A stretch of 64,000 bases of DNA from Isosphaera sp. (GTDB lineage Bacteria; Planctomycetota; Phycisphaerae; Phycisphaerales; UBA1924): assembly GCA_013822085.1 (NCBI GenBank), contig PNJV01000002.1, forward strand, positions 1 through 64,000, read 5' to 3'. Shown piece by piece: positions 13,362 through 23,501 of the stretch (its first letter is position 1; each line of letters opens with the position of its first letter). The notes beneath the pieces are model-generated. The model was not told the origin of the DNA and did not search any database. It was given only the letters and a program-made list of their open reading frames with translations. Both the position numbers and the translations under genes were made by a program.

Positions 13362-13395
13362 GTGCGGGATCGGGGTGGGCACGCCGCGGCGGCGT

Positions 13396-14532
13396 TCAGG
13401 CCTTCATGAGCGTTTCCAGAGAGGGCTGCGAGGTCTCGTCGGCGGCGGCCTGGGCCTCCTGGGCCTGGCGCAGCTCGCGGTTGCCCAGGAAGTTGGCCTC
13501 CAGCTCCAGGCGGATCTTCTCCATGGCCTTGTTCTGGATCTGGCGGACGCGTTCCTTGGTGACGCCGATGATCTGCCCGACCTGCTCGAGGGTCATGGGC
13601 TTGTCCAGGTCCCCCGACTCGAGGCCGAAGCGGTGCTCGATGACGGTGCGCTCGACGTCGGTCAGCTCGGCGCGGTTGTCCAGGACGATCCGGCGGACCT
13701 CGTCGGCGGCGTCCTTCTCGAAGGTGGCGCGCTTGGTCTCGAGGAAGTTGGACTTCTCGAGCTTGGGGTCAAAGTCGGTGGGGAAGCGCTGGCGGTACTT
13801 GCTCAGCTTCATGCCCTGACGGCTAAAGGCCTTGAGGATCGCGCGACATGCGTAGGTGGAGAACTTGTAGCCCCGGCCGGCGTCGAACTTGTCCACGGCG
13901 CGGAGCAGGGCCATGTTGCCCTCGCTGACCAGGTCGGCAAAGTCGACCTCGCTCATGCGGGTGCGCTTGGCCATGGCCAGCACCAGGGCCAGGTTGGTGT
14001 TGGCGATCTGCTCGCGGACGCGCTCGGCCACGCGGTGCCAGCGCAGGACCTGGTCGGCCTGCTCGGTGCTGGGCCGACGCGAGTCGGTCGACCAGATCTC
14101 CTGCTGGAGCTTCCAGATGCGGTAGCGCGCGTAGTTGAACTGGTGGAAGAGCACCTTCTCCTGGGCCCCGGTCAGGATCACCTGCTGGGCCGTCTTGATC
14201 GTCCGCGTGCGCCCCGAGAGGTCGTCCATCACCGGGTGGTACCAGGTGGTGTCCGGCTTGGGGATCTCGGGCGCGTCGTCGTAGATCTTGCGGTCGGCCT
14301 CGTCCTCGTAGAACGCGGGGCTGTCGATGAAGTCCTGCTCCGACTCGAGCAGGGTCGCAAGCAGACGCTCGTCGGCCAGGCTCAGCTTTCGGCTGACCCT
14401 CTTGCCGCTCTTGGCAGGCTTGCCCGCGGCCACGGCGGTGGCGCCGGCGGTCTCGGCGATGTCCACGCGCGTGCGGCGGCGGTGCTGCTCCATCGGGCTC
14501 AGGGCGCGGGTCATGGTCTCGATCGGTTCCAT
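13396..14532 (-). CDS. RNA polymerase sigma-70 family factor
   Basis: A 378-residue sigma-70 protein. Region 2 is clear (VSEGNMALLRAVDKFD then GYKFSTYACRAI) and directs core binding and -10 recognition. Region 4 is clear (MTLEQVGQIIGVTKERVRQIQNKAMEKIR), the -35 helix-turn-helix. Between them the usual STYATWWIRQAI of primary sigmas is replaced by STYACRAILKAF, so the aromatic pair that helps melt the -10 element is not conserved. The roughly 175-residue N-terminal region, with a non-conserved first 50, is unlike classic region 1.1. An Ala/Gln-rich tail follows region 4. The start is supported by GGAAG 8 bases upstream. It is probably a lineage-specific alternative or primary-like sigma, preceded by a long AT-rich leader and followed by a terminator. 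Confidence 0.88.
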   Translation of the reverse strand: MEPIETMTRALSPMEQHRRRTRVDIAETAGATAVAAGKPAKSGKRVSRKLSLADERLLATLLESEQDFIDSPAFYEDEADRKIYDDAPEIPKPDTTWYHPVMDDLSGRTRTIKTAQQVILTGAQEKVLFHQFNYARYRIWKLQQEIWSTDSRRPSTEQADQVLRWHRVAERVREQIANTNLALVLAMAKRTRMSEVDFADLVSEGNMALLRAVDKFDAGRGYKFSTYACRAILKAFSRQGMKLSKYRQRFPTDFDPKLEKSNFLETKRATFEKDAADEVRRIVLDNRAELTDVERTVIEHRFGLESGDLDKPMTLEQVGQIIGVTKERVRQIQNKAMEKIRLELEANFLGNRELRQAQEAQAAADETSQPSLETLMKA

Positions 14533-14885
14533 TTTCGTGCTTCCTTCGCGTCAGGCGTTCACACGGCCGCCGTCAGTGGCGACCGGCAAGATGGTCCGCT
14601 CCGCCGACCGTGGGCAAGGGCCCGACACACTGTCAGACCCGATGCGCCAGACCGGCCATCCAAACACAATCACGACGGCGTGTCAAACCCGTACATACAG
14701 GTCGGCATGCCGGCGGCCTTGTGCGTGGATGAGTGGTGCATGGTTCCTCATGATCTTCTCGTATTGCGGTTTTTTATCAGTCATCGCTTCGATTTGTTTG
14801 GTTCTTGTTTATATATACCGGCGTTGTCAATTCACAACTCTCGACGCGAGCGCCCTCAGAACGATCTCTGAAAGGCTCGCCCGTT

Positions 14886-16291: not shown

Positions 16292-16346
16292 TTGATACAT
16301 TTGCGCCTGGGACGCGGCGTGCCCGCGGCCTGTGGAGATCGCTCGG

Positions 16347-17729
16347 ATGAACAAGATCGCTCTGACAGCGTGGCTGGTGGCCCCGATCGCGGTGGTGGCT
16401 GGGCTGGCCCTGGCCGTGGACCGCCAGGCGGCCCGCCGGTCGCGCGACAGCTCCCAGGCCCCCTCGCTGGTCGCCGCCGCCGAGCGCTTTGCCAGCGACG
16501 CCGCGGCGGGCCGGGCCCAGCCCGCCGGCGTCCAGCCCGAGTCCCTGCCCCAGGGCTTTGTGCTGGTGGTCAAGGACCAGACGGGCCTGGCCAGCGCCTC
16601 CTCGCCGATCTTCCTGGCCTCGAGCCACAACGGCTGGAACCCCGGCGACGACAAGCAGGTGCTCACGGCGCGCTCGGACCTGCGCTGGCAGATCGTCATG
16701 CCCAAGCCCACCAACGACAGCCCCATCGAGTTCAAGTTCACGCGCGGCTCGTGGGACCTCGAGGAGCTCGACGGGGAGCTCAAGGCGATCGCAAACCGCA
16801 AGCTGCCGCTGCTGGACCCGGCGTCCATCACGCCCGGCGAGCCCCCGATCATCGAGTTCACGGTGGTGGCCTGGGGCGATCAGAAGCCCGACGTCTCGCA
16901 GCGGCCCGACGCCTCGCCGTACTACGACCTCAAGGTCACCGGCACCGTCAAGCGCCTGCAGGTCGCCGGCGGGGCCGTGCGGCACGTGCGCGACCTGCTC
17001 GTGTGGCTCCCGCCGGGCTACGACGCGCCCGAGAACGCCACGCGCACCTACCCGGTGCTGTACATGCAGGACGGCCAGAACCTCTTCCAGCAGTTCCCGG
17101 GCACGCCCGCCGAGTGGGGCGCCGACGAGACCGCCACCGAGCTGATCACCGCCGGCCGGGTCGAGCCGGTGATCATCGTCGGGATCCCGCACGCCGGTGC
17201 GGCCCGCGCGACGGAGTACACGCCGATCCAGCTCCTCGACGGCGCCACGCCGCGCGGCGGCAGGTACGTCTCCTGGCTCCTGTCGGAGGTCATGCCGCGG
17301 GTCGATCGCGCCTTCCGCACCAAGCGCGGCCCCGAGTTCACCGCCATCGGCGGGTCGTCCTTCGGGGCCGTCATCGCCATGGAGGCCGCCGCCGAGCACC
17401 CCGACGTCTTTGGCAAGGTCCTCCTTGAGAGCATGTCCATCACCCGCAACAACGGCGCGGCCCTGGCCCACTTCCTGGCCAAGCCGCGCTTCCCGTCGGT
17501 CGTCTACTGGGGCATGGGCGGGCGCGAGCTCTTCGACAGCGGCACGCCCGAGCAGAACGCGCGCTTCGTCGAGGGCACCGAGGCCTTCGACAAGGCCCTG
17601 GCGCAGCGCCCCGAGGTCAAGGCCAAGAAGTTCGTCGTCGTCCCCGACGCGGTGCACAACGAGACCGCCTGGCAGGCGCGCTTCGGGGGCGCCCTGGAGT
17701 TCCTCTTTCCCGCCAGCCGAGGCCAGTAA
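16347..17729 (+). CDS. Exported esterase with N-terminal carbohydrate-binding-like domain
   Basis: A 460-residue protein. It opens with MNKIALTAW and a hydrophobic segment ending in LALA, a likely signal peptide. Next is a beta-sandwich region (about 65-140) with SSHNGWNPGDD and FKFTRGSWD, resembling CBM20/CBM48-type starch-binding or E-set domains. The rest (about 190-460) is an alpha/beta hydrolase of the enterochelin esterase / esterase D type. LLVWLPPGYD and YPVLYMQDGQNLF are followed by the nucleophile elbow GGSSFG and a late His in DAVHNETAW. The substrate is unknown; feruloyl, acyl-sugar or siderophore esters are possible. ATG at 16347 is chosen for GGAG at 16334; an upstream in-frame ATG at 16332 lacks one. 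Confidence 0.8.
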   Translation: MNKIALTAWLVAPIAVVAGLALAVDRQAARRSRDSSQAPSLVAAAERFASDAAAGRAQPAGVQPESLPQGFVLVVKDQTGLASASSPIFLASSHNGWNPGDDKQVLTARSDLRWQIVMPKPTNDSPIEFKFTRGSWDLEELDGELKAIANRKLPLLDPASITPGEPPIIEFTVVAWGDQKPDVSQRPDASPYYDLKVTGTVKRLQVAGGAVRHVRDLLVWLPPGYDAPENATRTYPVLYMQDGQNLFQQFPGTPAEWGADETATELITAGRVEPVIIVGIPHAGAARATEYTPIQLLDGATPRGGRYVSWLLSEVMPRVDRAFRTKRGPEFTAIGGSSFGAVIAMEAAAEHPDVFGKVLLESMSITRNNGAALAHFLAKPRFPSVVYWGMGGRELFDSGTPEQNARFVEGTEAFDKALAQRPEVKAKKFVVVPDAVHNETAWQARFGGALEFLFPASRGQ

Positions 17730-18417
17730 TCCCTCCCGGCGGGAGCCACTTGCCGTTGCCCCGCCCCGTGCCCAGCGCGGCGCCCTGTCGGTGGCCCCAC
17801 GCAAGGGCCCGCTGCGCGGCGCAAGCTGGGAAACCCTGAGCGACTTTGCGCGCTCCCGTGCAGCCGCTGCCCCGCCCGGTGCGCATAGACGGGTGTCCGC
17901 AGCCCGCCAGGAGTGGATCGGCACCGGCACCACGCAGCACAGCACACGCAGCACGGCGCTCGCAGTGATGAACGCGTCTTGGCCAGGCGTTAGGCAGGGC
18001 TGGGGCGCGGTGTGACCGCCCGCGCTGGAGCGTGAGCAGAGTTCCGGGAGATCGGGAGAGTTCGGGGTCGGGGTGCGCGTGAGTGGGGAGGGAGACGGGG
18101 AGAGCCGGAGGCACGCTGTGCGAGTGCCGCTGTGCCCGTGGTCGATGCCGGTGAGGTCTGAGGTGGCCCAGCGCGGATCAGCACGCCCGGGCAAGCGCCC
18201 GGGCGTCGTTGTTTGCGCAGCAGCGCGGTGCCGCGATCGGTCTAGCGCCGGCTCTGGCGCAGCCGGGGGCGTCGGTCCCCGAACCGCCCGGCGGGGGCAG
18301 CGTACAGACAGGCCCATGCACACGAACCCGAATATGCTTTCGCCTGCCGCCACCCTTTCGTCGCCCGGAGTCGGCAGCGCGCCCGTCGCGGCGTCGGCCC
18401 GGGCCCAGGGAGCAGAT
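17730..18417. other. Intergenic region between esterase and PilT-like gene
   Basis: About 690 bases. GC-rich throughout, with frames on both strands that show no family features. The only clear structure is a hairpin at 18183-18206. An in-frame ATG at 18316 could extend the PilT-like protein by 34 residues, but it has a weak ribosome site. Confidence 0.45.
18183..18206 (+). terminator. Candidate terminator hairpin
   Basis: Perfect 10-base stem ACGCCCGGGC / GCCCGGGCGT with a 4-base AAGC loop. It is followed on the plus strand by CGTTGTTTG, a modest T-rich tail. It lies 454 bases after the esterase stop and 212 before the PilT-like start, so it may end a transcript from the esterase side. The distance and the weak tail leave this uncertain. 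Confidence 0.5.
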
Positions 18418-19596
18418 ATGTCGGCTCACGCCAACCATCCCAACAGCCACGGTCATGGGCATCATCAGGGGACCGGGCACGTGGTGCTCGAGACGGGCAA
18501 CAAGAAGGACCCGCACGCCACGCGCATCGGGGACTTCCTCAAGGCCTGCATCAAGCTGGGCGCCTCGGACCTGATCATGAAGGCCGGGACGGTGCCCAAG
18601 CTGCGCATCCGCGGCTCGCTCAAGCCCCTGGACACGGCGCCGCTGACGCAGGACGAGTTCGTGCAGATCGCCAAGCAGATCCTCTCGGAGGAGCTGTGGG
18701 AGGACCTCAAGACCTACGGCTCTGCGGACTTCGCCTACGACTACGACGAGACGACGCGCTTCCGCGTGAACCTGTTCCAGGCCAAGGGCCGCCTGGCCAT
18801 GGCCGCCCGCCTGATCACCAGCAACATCCGCCGGTTCGAGGACCTGTACCTGCCGGCGTCGATGTCGCAGATCGCGATGCAGCCGCAGGGGATCGTGCTC
18901 CTGTCGGGCGTGACCGGCTCGGGCAAGAGCACCACGATCGCCTCGATGCTCGACTACGTCAACGAGCGCAAGCCGGTGCACATCGTGACCATCGAGGACC
19001 CGATCGAGTACGTCTTCCAGGACAAGAAGGCGACGATCAACCAGCGCGAGATCGGGCTGGACGTGTCGGACTTCAAGGTCGCCCTGCGGGCCCTGGTGCG
19101 CGAGAACCCGGACATCGTGCTCGTGGGCGAGATGCGCGACAAGGAGACCTTCGAGGCCGCCCTGCACGCGGCCGAGACGGGGCACCTGGTCTACGGGACC
19201 ATCCACGCCTCGAGCACGACGCAGACCTTCAGCCGCATTTATGGCCTCTTCGAGTCGGAGGAGGTCGAGCAGGTCCGGCGCGTGCTGGCCTACCAGATGC
19301 GGGCCTTTGTGTACCAGAAGCTCCTGCCGACGCTGCACGAGAACATCGCGCGCATCCCCGCCCTTGAGATCCTCATCGCCAACCCGGTGGTGCAGAAGTA
19401 CGTCCTGGACGGGCGCGAGGGCGAGCTGCGCGAGTACCTGCGCACCGTCGAGGCGCGCCAGCAGGGCATGGTGGACTTCAACGGCTCGCTGGTGGACCTT
19501 GTCGAGCGCGAGTACATCCACGTGCGCGTCGCCGAGGAGGCCTCGCCCAACATCGACGAGCTCAAGATGCGTCTCAAGAAGCTCGGCGGGCGCTGA
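18418..19596 (+). CDS. PilT/PilU-like ATPase with a His-rich leader
   Basis: A 392-residue hexameric secretion-type ATPase of the pilus retraction branch. After a His-rich leader (SAHANHPN, HGHGHH) of about 35 residues comes the PilT N-terminal domain (FLKACIKLGASDLIMKAG). The core follows, with Walker A GVTGSGKS at 164-171, the Asp box TIEDPIEY, Walker B PDIVLVGEMRD and the His box AAETGHLVYGTIH. All catalytic motifs are intact. The C-terminal part diverges from classic PilT. ATG at 18418 is chosen for the strong GGGAG site 5 bases before it. The next gene, 162 bases on, encodes a membrane-bound relative lacking those motifs. A second, more canonical PilT is at 50206. Confidence 0.85.
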   Translation: MSAHANHPNSHGHGHHQGTGHVVLETGNKKDPHATRIGDFLKACIKLGASDLIMKAGTVPKLRIRGSLKPLDTAPLTQDEFVQIAKQILSEELWEDLKTYGSADFAYDYDETTRFRVNLFQAKGRLAMAARLITSNIRRFEDLYLPASMSQIAMQPQGIVLLSGVTGSGKSTTIASMLDYVNERKPVHIVTIEDPIEYVFQDKKATINQREIGLDVSDFKVALRALVRENPDIVLVGEMRDKETFEAALHAAETGHLVYGTIHASSTTQTFSRIYGLFESEEVEQVRRVLAYQMRAFVYQKLLPTLHENIARIPALEILIANPVVQKYVLDGREGELREYLRTVEARQQGMVDFNGSLVDLVEREYIHVRVAEEASPNIDELKMRLKKLGGR

Positions 19597-19758
19597 CGGC
19601 GGGCCCAGCCCTGCCGGGCCCGGGGCCATAGACTCTCCGACGCGGCTGCCGTCCGGCCCTGGCCCGACGCGCCCCGGCGGGCACGCGCGGTATGCTTGGC
19701 CCCCGCGCGGCGCGGCCCGGCACCCGACGCCGGCCCCGCCCGTGCACCCGGAGTCGGC

Positions 19759-21564
19759 ATGGCATCACTCCTCCTCCTCGATTGGGCCCACCCCGCACCC
19801 GGAGCGCTCAGGCCGGGCGCCGTCCTGGCTCAGGCCTCCCAGGCCCTGGTGCTCGTCTCGCCGTGGAAGCCGCTGGTGCTCCTGGCCGTCTTTGGCGCCT
19901 GGGCGTGGGTGGTCTCGACGGTCTACGACAAGCACGCGGCGCGCTTCCGCCTTGCGCGCGAGCGCTGGAACCTGATCCACCTGATCGTGGGTCTGGTGGC
20001 GCTGGTCGTGGCCGTGGGCATCCCGTGGGAGCACCCGGCGGCGTTCTTCGTCGGCCTGGCCGCGGCCCTGGTGATCCTGGGCATCGACCTCTACGCCTAC
20101 GCGCACGTGGCCAATAAGGACGAGCGCGTCCCCGAGTCCCAGCGCATCCGCCTCGACGCGCTGACCAAGGTGAGCAACGCCCGCGCCGAGCGCTCCAAGT
20201 CCAGGGGCAAGATCGAGCCCAAGCTCCGGCTCATCGCCCCCGACAAGTCCGTGCTGCCGCCGCCGACGGCCGACACCCCCGAGGCGGAGGTGCGCCTGGC
20301 CGCCGAGTCCGTCTACCTGCGCGCCATGGCCTCCCGCGCAAGCTCGGTGGAGATCCGCCCCACGGGCAAGGACCAGTCGTACGCGCCGGTCTTCATCGTC
20401 GACGGCTTGCAGACCCCCGGCGACCCGCTGGCGGCCCAGTCGGCCCTGGCGATCATCGACCTGTGGAAGCTGGGCGCCAAGCTCGACGTGGCCGACCGGC
20501 GCCGCAAGCTCCAGGGCACCCTGGACGTGGAGCACGCCGGGGCCAAGCACCGCGTGCGCATCACCTCCGTCGGCGTGGCCGGCGGCATGCGCCTGACGAT
20601 GCTCATCGACCCCGACGGCCAGGTCCGCCGCGAGCCGGCCAAGCTCGGCCTGACCGACGAGCAGTTCAAGGAGCTGCGCGCGATCGTCGACGATCCCAAG
20701 CGCGGCGTGGTCCTGCTGACGACGCCGCCGGACGGCGGCCGGACCACCCTCACCTACTCGGTGGTGCAGATGCACGACGCCTACACCCAGCGCGTCGAGG
20801 TGCTCGAGGTCGATCAGCAGCTGGCCATCGAGGGCGTGCGCCACACCCCCTTCGACCCGCTGGCCGAGGGCGCCGACTTCGGCACCACCGCCCGCTCCCT
20901 CCTGCGCCGAGACCCCGACGTGCTCGCCGTGGCCGAGCTGCCCGACGCCAACACCGCCAAGGAAGTCGCCAAGGCCGACACCGACCGCACCCGCGTCTAC
21001 GTCTGCTTCCGCGCCGGCTCGGCGCTGGAGGCCCTCGACTCGTGGATCAAGGCCGTGGGCGACCCCAAGCAGGCGGCCCGCAACCTCCGCGGCGTGGTCA
21101 ACGGCAGGCTCCTGCGCAAGCTCTGCACCAACTGCCGCGTCGAGTACACCCCCTCCCCGGAGATGGTCCAGAAGCTCGGCGTCACCGACCCCAAGGCCTC
21201 GACCAAGCTCTTCAAGAAGGGCGGCCAGGTCCTGATCAAGAACAAGCCCGAGGTCTGCCCGGTCTGCGGCGGCGTCGGGTTCATCGGTCAGGAGGGGATC
21301 TTCGAGGTCTACGCCATCGGCGACGAGGAGCGCGCCCTGGTCGAGTCGGGGAACCTCTCGGCCATCAAGGCGGCCCTGCGCAAGAAGCCGCTGCCCACGC
21401 TCCAGGCCGCTGGCGTGGCCAAGCTCCTCCAGGGCGTGACCAGCCTCGAAGAGTTCACCCGTGTGACCTCGCCGACGCCCGCCCCGGGCGCCGCCGCTCC
21501 GTCCAGCCCCGCGCCCCAGGCCCCGCCACCGGCCAAGGGCGCCAGCGCCACCTCGCGCCGCTGA
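19759..21564 (+). CDS. Membrane-anchored GspE/PilB-like protein with degraded ATPase motifs
   Basis: A 601-residue protein. Three hydrophobic segments lie in the first 120 residues (around 27-52, 72-92 and 96-118). The rest aligns by eye with the GspE/PilB fold: SRASSVEIRP for the RASDIHIEP region, then the nucleotide core, then two CxxC pairs (CTNC and CPVC) of the zinc region. The core motifs are broken. The Walker A position reads TPPDGGRTT with Arg328 for the essential Lys, and the Asp box TAEDP is replaced by LEVDQ. Walker B is VLAVAELPD instead of VILVGEIRD, and the His box is lost (VCFRAGSAL). It is therefore probably a pseudo-ATPase serving as a membrane scaffold or regulator. GGAG 5 bases before the ATG supports the start. 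Neighbours are a PilT-like ATPase upstream and a CvpA-like protein downstream. Confidence 0.75.
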   Translation: MASLLLLDWAHPAPGALRPGAVLAQASQALVLVSPWKPLVLLAVFGAWAWVVSTVYDKHAARFRLARERWNLIHLIVGLVALVVAVGIPWEHPAAFFVGLAAALVILGIDLYAYAHVANKDERVPESQRIRLDALTKVSNARAERSKSRGKIEPKLRLIAPDKSVLPPPTADTPEAEVRLAAESVYLRAMASRASSVEIRPTGKDQSYAPVFIVDGLQTPGDPLAAQSALAIIDLWKLGAKLDVADRRRKLQGTLDVEHAGAKHRVRITSVGVAGGMRLTMLIDPDGQVRREPAKLGLTDEQFKELRAIVDDPKRGVVLLTTPPDGGRTTLTYSVVQMHDAYTQRVEVLEVDQQLAIEGVRHTPFDPLAEGADFGTTARSLLRRDPDVLAVAELPDANTAKEVAKADTDRTRVYVCFRAGSALEALDSWIKAVGDPKQAARNLRGVVNGRLLRKLCTNCRVEYTPSPEMVQKLGVTDPKASTKLFKKGGQVLIKNKPEVCPVCGGVGFIGQEGIFEVYAIGDEERALVESGNLSAIKAALRKKPLPTLQAAGVAKLLQGVTSLEEFTRVTSPTPAPGAAAPSSPAPQAPPPAKGASATSRR

Positions 21565-21629
21565 CACCCACCCTCCCTCCCCTTGGCACCTACCCACGTA
21601 CGCCCCAACTCCACTCCCCCCGGCCCCTC

Positions 21630-21667
21630 GCCCCGCAACCCCCCGCCCCGCAACCCCCCGCCCCGCC
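21630..21667. repeat. 15-bp tandem repeat, 2.5 copies
   Basis: Unit GCCCCGCAACCCCCC at 21630-21644 and 21645-21659, with a partial third copy to 21667. It lies in the 122-base gap between the pseudo-ATPase and the CvpA-like gene. Confidence 0.75.
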
Positions 21668-21686
21668 TTCGGCACGGACACGACCC

Positions 21687-23501
21687 ATGATCATGAGCCT
21701 GATCGTCATCGCGGCCATCGGCGTGCTGGCCTATCTCTGGTCGGCGCGCGGCTTCTTCTCCGGCTTCTTGCACCTGATCAACGTCCTGGCCGCTGGCGCC
21801 ATCGCCTTCGCGTTCTGGGAGCTCGTCGCTGGGGCCGTGCTGGGCGCCACCGACTCGCGGCTGATCACCGACATCGCCATCGGCGGCTCGCTGATCCTCC
21901 TCTTTGCCGTCACCCTGACGGTCCTGCACCTGGCCGTCACGGCCCTGGTGCCGGGCAACCTGGTGCTCAAGCCGGCCCACGACCTGATCGGCGGCGGTCT
22001 GTGCGGGGCGGCAGCGGCGTTCGTCTCCATGGGCATCCTGGTCATCGGTCTGAGCCACGTCCGCCTCCCGCGCGACTTCCTGGGCTACCGGCCGGTTGTC
22101 TCGGACAGCTCCGGCTCTGTGGTCCGCTCGGCGGGCCTGTGGGTCCCGGCCGACCGCCTCACCGCGGCCCTCTACCGCCAGCTCTCGGTCACGGCCTTCT
22201 CCACGGCGGACAGCCTGGCGTACTGGCACCCGCTCCTGGCCGAGCGCGGCCACCTCAACCGCTCGGCCACCAAGGACGCCGTGCTCAAGTCCACGCTCCT
22301 GCCCGCGGACGTCACGCTCGTCGGGCGCTACACCGTCGGCCGCCAGTCCGACGTGCCCTTGGCCCAGTTCCTCGCCGAGCCCGGCCAGGCGCGGCAGAAC
22401 GTCAAGGCCTTCGACGGCTCCGACGCCACCACGGCTTACGGCGGCCAGGCGTACGTCGAGGCCGTCGGCCTGGTCTTCGGCTCGGGCGCCCGCGAGCCGG
22501 GCAACTCCCAGATCATCTACGCCCCCGGGCACGCGGTGCTGCTCATGAGCCGCGGCGACGGCTCGCCGCTGGAGGCCTTCCTGCCCTTCGGGCTCGTCTC
22601 GCAGGCCGAGGGGAGCACCCAGAACCTTGGGCGCTGGCGCTTCGACGGCCAGGACGCGTTCGTCGCCTCCGTCGGGGCCGCGGCCAACCCGGTCGTCTTC
22701 TACGAGTTCCTGGTCCCCAAGACCAACCCGCCCCTCTCGCCGGTGGCCCTGGACGTCCGCGGCGTGCGCATCGACCTGAGCACCCCCCAGACGCGCAACA
22801 CCACCCAGCCCACCCCCATCACGGCCATCGACGAGTTCCCCACCCCGAGCGACCGGCTCGACGCCGTCGCCTCCGGCCTGCTGCGCGAGCAGGCCGTCGC
22901 CCAACGCACCGCGCTGGACGCCACCGGCGCCCCAGTCGTGTCGGTCAACCCCACGAACTTGCAGGAAGCGCTCAGGGTCAGCCAGGCGTTCTTCCCGGCG
23001 CTCAACAAGGGCGTCATCTCCGGCCTGACCTTCGACGACAACAACCGCATCATCGACGGCGAGTGGGTCGGGCGACCCGCCGGCGGGCAGAGCCAGGTCA
23101 TCGACCGCAACCTGCGCGTGGCCGAGTTCGGCAAGCCCTCCGACATCGTGATCATCCAGCTCAACGTCAGCGGCCGCGGCAACGACTTCGGCCTCCTCTC
23201 GGCCCGGTCCGGCGAGGCCTCGGGCGCCCCGCTGCTGGTCGCCGCCGACGGCCAGCAGTTCGAGTGCGTCGGGTGGCTCTACGAGGCCGCCACCGAGGTG
23301 CGCGTGCGCTACACGCCCTCGCGCCCGGTCCGCCAGAAGTCCGAGCTGCCCAGCCTCTCGTCCACCCGCGACGACCAGAAGCTCGTCCTCATCTTCCGCG
23401 CCGCGCTCAACACCACCATCACCTCCTACGCCATCGGCTCGACCGTCATCGCCACCCTCGAACGACCGATCGAGCTCAACACTCGGCAGGGCACCCGCTG
23501 A
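21687..23501 (+). CDS. CvpA-like membrane protein with a large C-terminal domain
   Basis: A 604-residue protein. The first 120 residues carry about four hydrophobic helices, with the pattern of the CvpA (colicin V production) family: GVLAYLWSARGFFSGFLHLINVLAAG, a short acidic turn, then AHDLIGGGLCGAAAAFVSMG. The following roughly 480 residues are soluble, rich in beta-prone segments, and have no motif I recognise. Their side of the membrane is not certain, but the topology would place them outside the cytosol if the helix count is even and the N-terminus is out. ATG at 21687 opens the hydrophobic region; a second ATG two codons later is equally possible. It is co-directional with the PilT-like and pseudo-ATPase genes, suggesting one unit. 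Confidence 0.65.
   Translation: MIMSLIVIAAIGVLAYLWSARGFFSGFLHLINVLAAGAIAFAFWELVAGAVLGATDSRLITDIAIGGSLILLFAVTLTVLHLAVTALVPGNLVLKPAHDLIGGGLCGAAAAFVSMGILVIGLSHVRLPRDFLGYRPVVSDSSGSVVRSAGLWVPADRLTAALYRQLSVTAFSTADSLAYWHPLLAERGHLNRSATKDAVLKSTLLPADVTLVGRYTVGRQSDVPLAQFLAEPGQARQNVKAFDGSDATTAYGGQAYVEAVGLVFGSGAREPGNSQIIYAPGHAVLLMSRGDGSPLEAFLPFGLVSQAEGSTQNLGRWRFDGQDAFVASVGAAANPVVFYEFLVPKTNPPLSPVALDVRGVRIDLSTPQTRNTTQPTPITAIDEFPTPSDRLDAVASGLLREQAVAQRTALDATGAPVVSVNPTNLQEALRVSQAFFPALNKGVISGLTFDDNNRIIDGEWVGRPAGGQSQVIDRNLRVAEFGKPSDIVIIQLNVSGRGNDFGLLSARSGEASGAPLLVAADGQQFECVGWLYEAATEVRVRYTPSRPVRQKSELPSLSSTRDDQKLVLIFRAALNTTITSYAIGSTVIATLERPIELNTRQGTR

Follow-up and report, generated by a model that had tools for sequence, protein, structure and literature searches.

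A conserved gene set of a PilT motor, a membrane-anchored GspE-fold pseudo-ATPase and a CvpA-like protein in Phycisphaerae

The described systems closest to the locus analysed here are the PilB/PilT/PilC pilus motors, PilU, the GspE-GspL pair of type II secretion and the CvpA (Colicin V production, PF02674) family with MarP. PilU is PilT-type and keeps its catalytic motifs, and MarP joins a CvpA membrane domain to an extracytoplasmic domain that is a serine protease. To our knowledge, no CvpA protein is a partner of pili. Within the secretion-ATPase superfamily, the Walker A lysine, the Walker B glutamate and the Asp-box and His residues have been reported as essential (PMC5065972), as have E204 and H229 of PilT (PMC6858323). 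EHEC and vibrios need CvpA, an inner-membrane protein, to resist deoxycholate (PMC6705877); on that basis, an envelope role for the present set is a reasonable guess only. In the literature searched we found no description of a set of PilT, a membrane-anchored GspE-fold protein (pGspE) and CvpA, in keeping with an earlier sequence-only reading that knew of no system of this make-up, and papers beyond that search could exist. The main text of the Planctopirus limnophila essential-gene paper mentions neither CvpA nor PilT.

The window (the whole 64,000-nucleotide stretch of DNA that was analysed) comes from a Phycisphaerales-type genome of 2.26 Mb in 62 contigs (86.7% complete). On its plus strand, our ORF reading places the PilT, pGspE and CvpA-like genes consecutively, with gaps of 162 bp between PilT and pGspE and 122 bp between pGspE and CvpA. 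The main pilus locus, in which the source genome retains a canonical PilT, lies ~25 kb away on the same contig; the shared orientation and the distance from the pilus locus are thus as the sequence-only reading described them. Gene starts were picked by position, without a gene caller; the PilT ORF ends at 19596 and has candidate ATG starts at 18316, 18334 and 18418. The features of the set are as follows.

18316 to 19596, plus strand: PilT-family motor ATPase with four intact catalytic motifs (TIGR01420 at 381.5 bits, motifs, own clade).
19759 to 21564, plus strand: pGspE, a membrane-anchored GspE/PilB-fold pseudo-ATPase as judged from T2SSE (113.9 bits), AlphaFold, Foldseek and Walker A.
19864 to 20118, plus strand: three predicted transmembrane helices of pGspE (hydropathy, AlphaFold, charge pattern, apparent signal peptides in sister lineages).
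20719 to 20748, plus strand: degenerate Walker A of pGspE, TTPPDGGRTT, with Lys replaced by Arg (motif alignment).
21124 to 21267, plus strand: four-cysteine (Zn-type) motif of pGspE, CxxC...CxxC, retained (Cys in 137-141 of 144 sequences per position).
21687 to 23501, plus strand: CvpA-like membrane protein with a large extracytoplasmic domain (Colicin_V in 60/72 orthologues, AlphaFold, position directly 3' of pGspE in nearly all loci).
21690 to 22055, plus strand: four predicted transmembrane helices of the CvpA-like protein (hydropathy, AlphaFold, Colicin_V match).
22056 to 23498, plus strand: C-terminal domain of the CvpA-like protein, ~480 residues, mainly beta and predicted to be periplasmic (AlphaFold; no significant match).

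Like the pilus motors, the set contains a genuine PilT-family protein and a protein with the PilB/GspE fold and Zn-type cysteines; however, pGspE is anchored in the membrane, is missing the catalytic residues and carries helices in place of the N1 domain of PilB, and the set includes no PilC and is separate from the pilus locus. By analogy, the set may resemble the pilus motor layer, a motor on a membrane platform, but it has no platform gene, and its GspE is catalytically dead and self-anchored. With GspE-GspL the set shares the GspE fold and an ATPase domain held at the inner membrane, whereas the anchor helices of pGspE are in the same chain as its GspE domain and its score falls far under the GspE equivalog cut-off (153.3 vs 630 bits, NCBIfam). 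The CvpA-like protein has the four-helix membrane domain of the CvpA family and, like MarP, an extracytoplasmic domain after it. Unlike MarP, it matches no protease family and contains no invariant His, and it differs from both in that its C-terminal domain has no detectable relative and in its linkage to a GspE/PilT pair. As with PilU, PilT is paired with a second secretion-ATPase relative, but that relative is here a GspE-type protein, fixed in the membrane and with a broken catalytic site.

The PilT of the set scores above the NCBIfam PilT/PilU cut-off (TIGR01420, 381.5 vs 319.1 bits), and its Walker A (GVTGSGKST), Asp box, Walker B (GEMRD) and His box are all intact, so the sequence-only reading was right to call it an intact PilT-type ATPase. 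These catalytic motifs are intact in all 34 sequences examined. In the PilT tree, where a mis-framed row (L070_other, branch length 10) was disregarded, the set's PilT forms its own clade apart from the other PilTs of the source genome. The PilT retraction motif, AIRNLIRE, stands outside the curated TIGR01420 definition; its consensus was not found in the set's PilT, for which the window reads NPVVQKYVLDGREGE, and the Asn of the motif is mostly Lys among the PilTs of the set. Two other PilTs of the source genome are near the consensus (AIQNLIRE and AVRNLIRE). The lack of consensus AIRNLIRE fits a client other than a pilus. PilT is slowly evolving and is the constant element across loci, pGspE being the faster-evolving of the two in the trees. 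The third PilT of the source genome, which lies outside the window (G000 contig C6:55440-56546), has the near-canonical AVRNLIRE.

pGspE matches Pfam T2SSE (PF00437) at 113.9 bits, well over the cut-off of 24.9, and lies far under the NCBIfam PilB equivalog cut-off (123.9 vs 676 bits). Its sequence similarity to PilT is weak (TIGR01420, E 0.0014). The AlphaFold model has a pLDDT of 89.5, and its best Foldseek match is PilF/PilB (5oiu, E 6e-33). Hydropathy and AlphaFold place three N-terminal membrane helices at residues 36-62, 67-87 and 93-120, with a charge pattern of -1.5 at the N-terminus, +2.0 in loop 1, -0.4 in loop 2 and +3.3 after TM3. Several sister-lineage homologues, read by eye, start with an apparent signal peptide, which together with the charge pattern suggests that the N-terminus is outside and predicts a cytoplasmic GspE domain. 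In place of the G-x4-GK-S/T loop, Walker A reads TPPDGGRTTL; the window's pGspE has neither the Asp-box Asp nor the His-box His, and its four Zn-type cysteines are kept. The sequence-only view of an inactive GspE-fold protein with three N-terminal membrane helices is borne out by the T2SSE match, the AlphaFold model, the hydropathy and the degenerate Walker A. We infer from the sequences that ATP hydrolysis has been lost in the pGspE of Phycisphaerae; nucleotide could still be bound by the retained Gly-Arg-Thr-Thr loop.

A profile search of 150 Phycisphaerae genomes found pGspE in ~146, a few of which hold partial genes at contig ends, and did not find it in G101, G132, G163 and G171. Among 61 genomes searched, nearly all have orthologues that include the membrane region; the exceptions are G005 and G060 (PilB-like matches only), G038 (truncated by the end of its contig) and G027 (split). 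The genomes compared are mostly metagenome assemblies. Across 144 distinct pGspE sequences of the class, the Walker A Lys occurs in none of the 142 that have a residue there (two have gaps), its position being taken by Arg (98), Leu (17), Gly (7), Val (7) and others. The preceding Gly is kept in all 144, the Walker A Thr in 134 and the Asp-box Glu in 141, while the His-box His remains in one and the Asp-box Asp in three; at the Walker B position, 83 sequences have Glu and 35 have Asp, and each Zn-type cysteine is kept in 137-141. Between close relatives, dN/dS is 0.03-0.18, indicating purifying selection. On these sequence patterns, the pGspE of Phycisphaerae is a maintained pseudo-ATPase, found class-wide and under purifying selection rather than as the decayed one-off copy that the sequence-only reading had allowed for. 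In genus g24 (L072, L099-L102), some of the Zn-type cysteines are also gone (RALAKSSRE ... CPESGG) and purifying selection persists. At L159 / L039 (G032), no stop ends the pseudo-ATPase frame before the CvpA gene, through which it continues in another frame; a sequencing error or a lost stop may account for this.

The membrane region of pGspE can be aligned across Planctomycetota (alignment A5), and a search with A5 found the protein family outside Phycisphaerae in the taxonomic families f48, f55, f69, f89, f98 and f110, while the many weak matches covered the GspE-domain part only. Homologues of f48, f55 and f69 have intact ATPase motifs (Walker A GPTG-x-GK, Asp box EDP/ENP, GEIRD and the His-box His), those of f98 and f89 have broken motifs, and those of f110 keep the P-loop and are altered in the other motifs. 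PilT and CvpA neighbours recur in these sister lineages, with a short CvpA of ~200-270 residues (the CvpA genes of f89 and f110 were recognised by eye); f48 often has no adjacent PilT, and at locus L126 no CvpA was found downstream of the pGspE homologue. In a tree of 61 proteins, the membrane-anchored GspE family is split from the GspE/PilBs of the source genome (98/92), Phycisphaerae form one clade (100/100), and f89 and f98 form another (100/100) beside the intact f48 (83/65). A single origin of site loss uniting Phycisphaerae with f89/f98 is absent from the best tree and has an AU p of 0.40, which leaves one or two losses of the ATPase site. The loss is not strictly tied to the CvpA extension, since f98 combines a broken site with a short CvpA. 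As judged from these sequences, the membrane helices are ancestral to the GspE family, being present in intact-site sister lineages, and the ATPase site was lost later, which overturns the earlier suggestion that the pseudo-ATPase had gained its helices. The catalytic site of a membrane-anchored GspE ATPase thus appears to have disappeared at the base of Phycisphaerae, with perhaps a second loss elsewhere, and PilT stayed intact.

The locus scan used a family-level alignment (A2, alignment A1 being too diverse), so that its patterns are Phycisphaerales-like and absence elsewhere lies outside its reach; its loci are titled Planctomycetota or Phycisphaerae, bar one evident mislabel. That locus, L169 (QWIH01000058.1), is titled 'Leptolyngbya sp. 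PLA1' and has a Phycisphaerales-type locus, probably through a wrong title or a contaminated bin. Among 40 family/order loci, pGspE and CvpA are adjacent in all 40 and PilT-pGspE-CvpA lie on one strand in 34; three of these loci have 4-bp gene overlaps, which suggest an operon. Among 80 named loci (counts that include L159 and L211, added by hand), CvpA lies 3' of pGspE in all 77 that extend far enough, and 54 of 75 have PilT no more than 2.5 kb upstream. A further 20 class loci have CvpA 3' in 20/20 and PilT 5' in 13/20. For six family loci without an adjacent PilT, an orthologue (74-78% identity) is found elsewhere in five of the six genomes, and no orthologue was found in the G032 genome (86% complete). 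Such order, conserved in dozens of genomes, is more than chance, and the genes stay together in relatives, as does the pairing of a motor with a membrane-fixed inactive homologue that the sequence-only reading had picked out. Since some genomes have PilT away from the other two genes, a second system could make use of it too.

Flanks of 161 loci were searched with the window's PilB, PilC and main PilT as the only queries; outside the set these were found only at L143, where pilus genes start ~2 kb downstream, at L070, which has another PilT, and at L138 (the flank-search rows of L057 and L267-L274 represent genes of the set itself, left unmasked). GspF/PilC-type platforms occur in 149/150 Phycisphaerae genomes, so their co-occurrence is uninformative on whether the set depends on pili. 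At L138:5716-7605 (G183), a GspE-type ATPase with an FHA domain and intact motifs lies between PilT and the pseudo-ATPase. It was considered as a second intact membrane-anchored form and rejected, as this FHA-GspE does not have that membrane region. Several Phycisphaerales relatives (L039-L078) have recurring housekeeping genes in their flanks, which we take from their sequences to be glmU, prs, pth, ribosomal S6 and L9, ssb and hisF. Two genes at 13375-14871 of the window, a superoxide dismutase and its neighbour, lie near the set in L040, L041, L044, L050, L051, L072, L075, L076 and L078; an esterase-like gene (16332-17729) is close to it in fewer family relatives.

The CvpA-like protein has a four-helix membrane domain by hydropathy and AlphaFold. 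In the window, residues 4-129 match Colicin_V (PF02674) at 17.3 bits, under the cut-off of 29.3; the family is matched by 60 of 72 orthologues (E up to 0.01, best 3.8e-9), and this protein is the sole Colicin_V match in the source genome. Its AlphaFold model has a mean pLDDT of 92.4 and a pTM of 0.90, in line with the earlier claim of a CvpA-like protein with a ~480-residue extra domain. For the C-terminal domain, Pfam, PDB sequences, and PDB and viral folds (Foldseek) gave no significant match, and neither a protease family match among the 72 members nor an invariant His in the protein was found. As a mark of the set, the extra domain holds for Phycisphaerae, of which it is typical, and does not hold in the sister lineages, where CvpA is short.

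Computation thus gives a gene set with defined motifs, conservation, predicted topology, intact-site homologues and selection. From these we infer a physical complex of PilT, pGspE and CvpA, a direction of force within it and its independence from the pilus locus. As a tentative but quite plausible reading, the three proteins would make up one inner-membrane assembly, with PilT as motor, pGspE as membrane receptor or scaffold and CvpA as transmembrane output. PilT would be its sole ATP-driven motor. Held in the membrane by its three helices and exposing its GspE-fold domain to the cytoplasm, the non-hydrolysing pGspE may position PilT under the membrane, much as PilB and PilT dock on the platform protein PilC. 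Together pGspE and CvpA would form the membrane part on which PilT docks and to which it supplies work, and CvpA, the most constant partner of pGspE, may relay what the motor does, as motion or as state, to the periplasmic domain, the putative site of effect. The ancestor probably had two active motors, GspE and PilT, comparable to the pair that extends and retracts pili. The GspE catalytic site would then have been lost in Phycisphaerae and, through the same event or a separate one, in f89 and f98, with the structural role kept, and in Phycisphaerae the CvpA partner would also have a large outer domain. The task may, as a guess, be envelope or surface maintenance.

Slightly more tentatively, this would be a Planctomycetota envelope machine independent of pili, in which PilT acts on a membrane-built GspE ring and its CvpA output and not on pilins and PilC, one of two ancestral motors having turned into a passive structural part. 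A dedicated machine is supported by the conserved gene order, the adjacency of CvpA, the intact PilT motifs and a pGspE whose fold, helices, Zn-type cysteines and Walker A Gly are kept under purifying selection, and further by intact-site sister homologues with the same membrane region and neighbours, the separate PilT clade and the near absence of pilus genes from the flanks. Against it count the platforms of 149/150 genomes, the partly unlinked PilT, the pilus genes at L143, the frequent lack of PilT in f48 and the possible nucleotide binding.

The near-universal platforms, the PilB/GspE fold of pGspE, the one class locus with pilus genes ~2 kb from the set, and a source genome with three PilTs and several GspE/PilBs would also suit a brake on type IV pili. 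Here pGspE would be a membrane-fixed decoy competing with PilB at the platform, or would sequester PilT, with CvpA sensing the envelope and setting the brake. This is possible but unlikely, and less favoured than a dedicated machine: the set has its own PilT clade and almost never adjoins pilus genes, and a pure decoy would need neither the intact ATPase site of the sister-lineage homologues nor, in any obvious way, a conserved linkage to CvpA.

It is improbable that pGspE and PilT share one hetero-hexamer in which pGspE supplies inactive positions that fix the firing order and anchor the ring to the membrane. The common superfamily fold, the conserved linkage and the purifying selection that preserves a fold whose active site no longer works would suit such a mixed ring, but the two proteins are PilT-type and GspE-type with weak sequence likeness, the intact-site sister homologues would give no dead positions, and we know of no hetero-hexamer of these two types.

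The conserved remnants of the nucleotide site (Walker A Gly in 144/144 and Thr in 134/144, Asp-box Glu in 141/144) despite the loss of Lys, together with the unlinked PilTs, raise the quite improbable alternative of a switch in which pGspE would bind ATP or some other nucleotide, leave it unhydrolysed and signal to CvpA, PilT being just a co-transcribed neighbour. The Walker A Lys, Asp-box Asp and His-box His, reported as essential (PMC5065972, PMC6858323), are gone, and PilT adjacency recurs in distant lineages. A decayed one-off paralogue, or chance neighbours without common function, would accommodate the unlinked PilTs and the faster evolution of pGspE but is refuted by the conservation data, namely pGspE in ~146/150 class genomes at low dN/dS and a gene order that persists throughout the class and outside it.

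The favoured reading of a dedicated inner-membrane assembly, if true, would mean a machine that has a PilT motor to itself and for which the set includes no pilus platform; as an undescribed three-gene set, it points to a motor complex that nobody has studied, with an outer CvpA domain that has no detectable known relative. Phycisphaerae belong to a phylum whose envelope and cell division are unusual, and the near-universal presence of the set among them suggests that its function is likely basic to the class. The intact-site homologues, their broken-site descendants and the constant PilT form a natural series on which roles of the secretion-ATPase fold that do not burn ATP may be followed.
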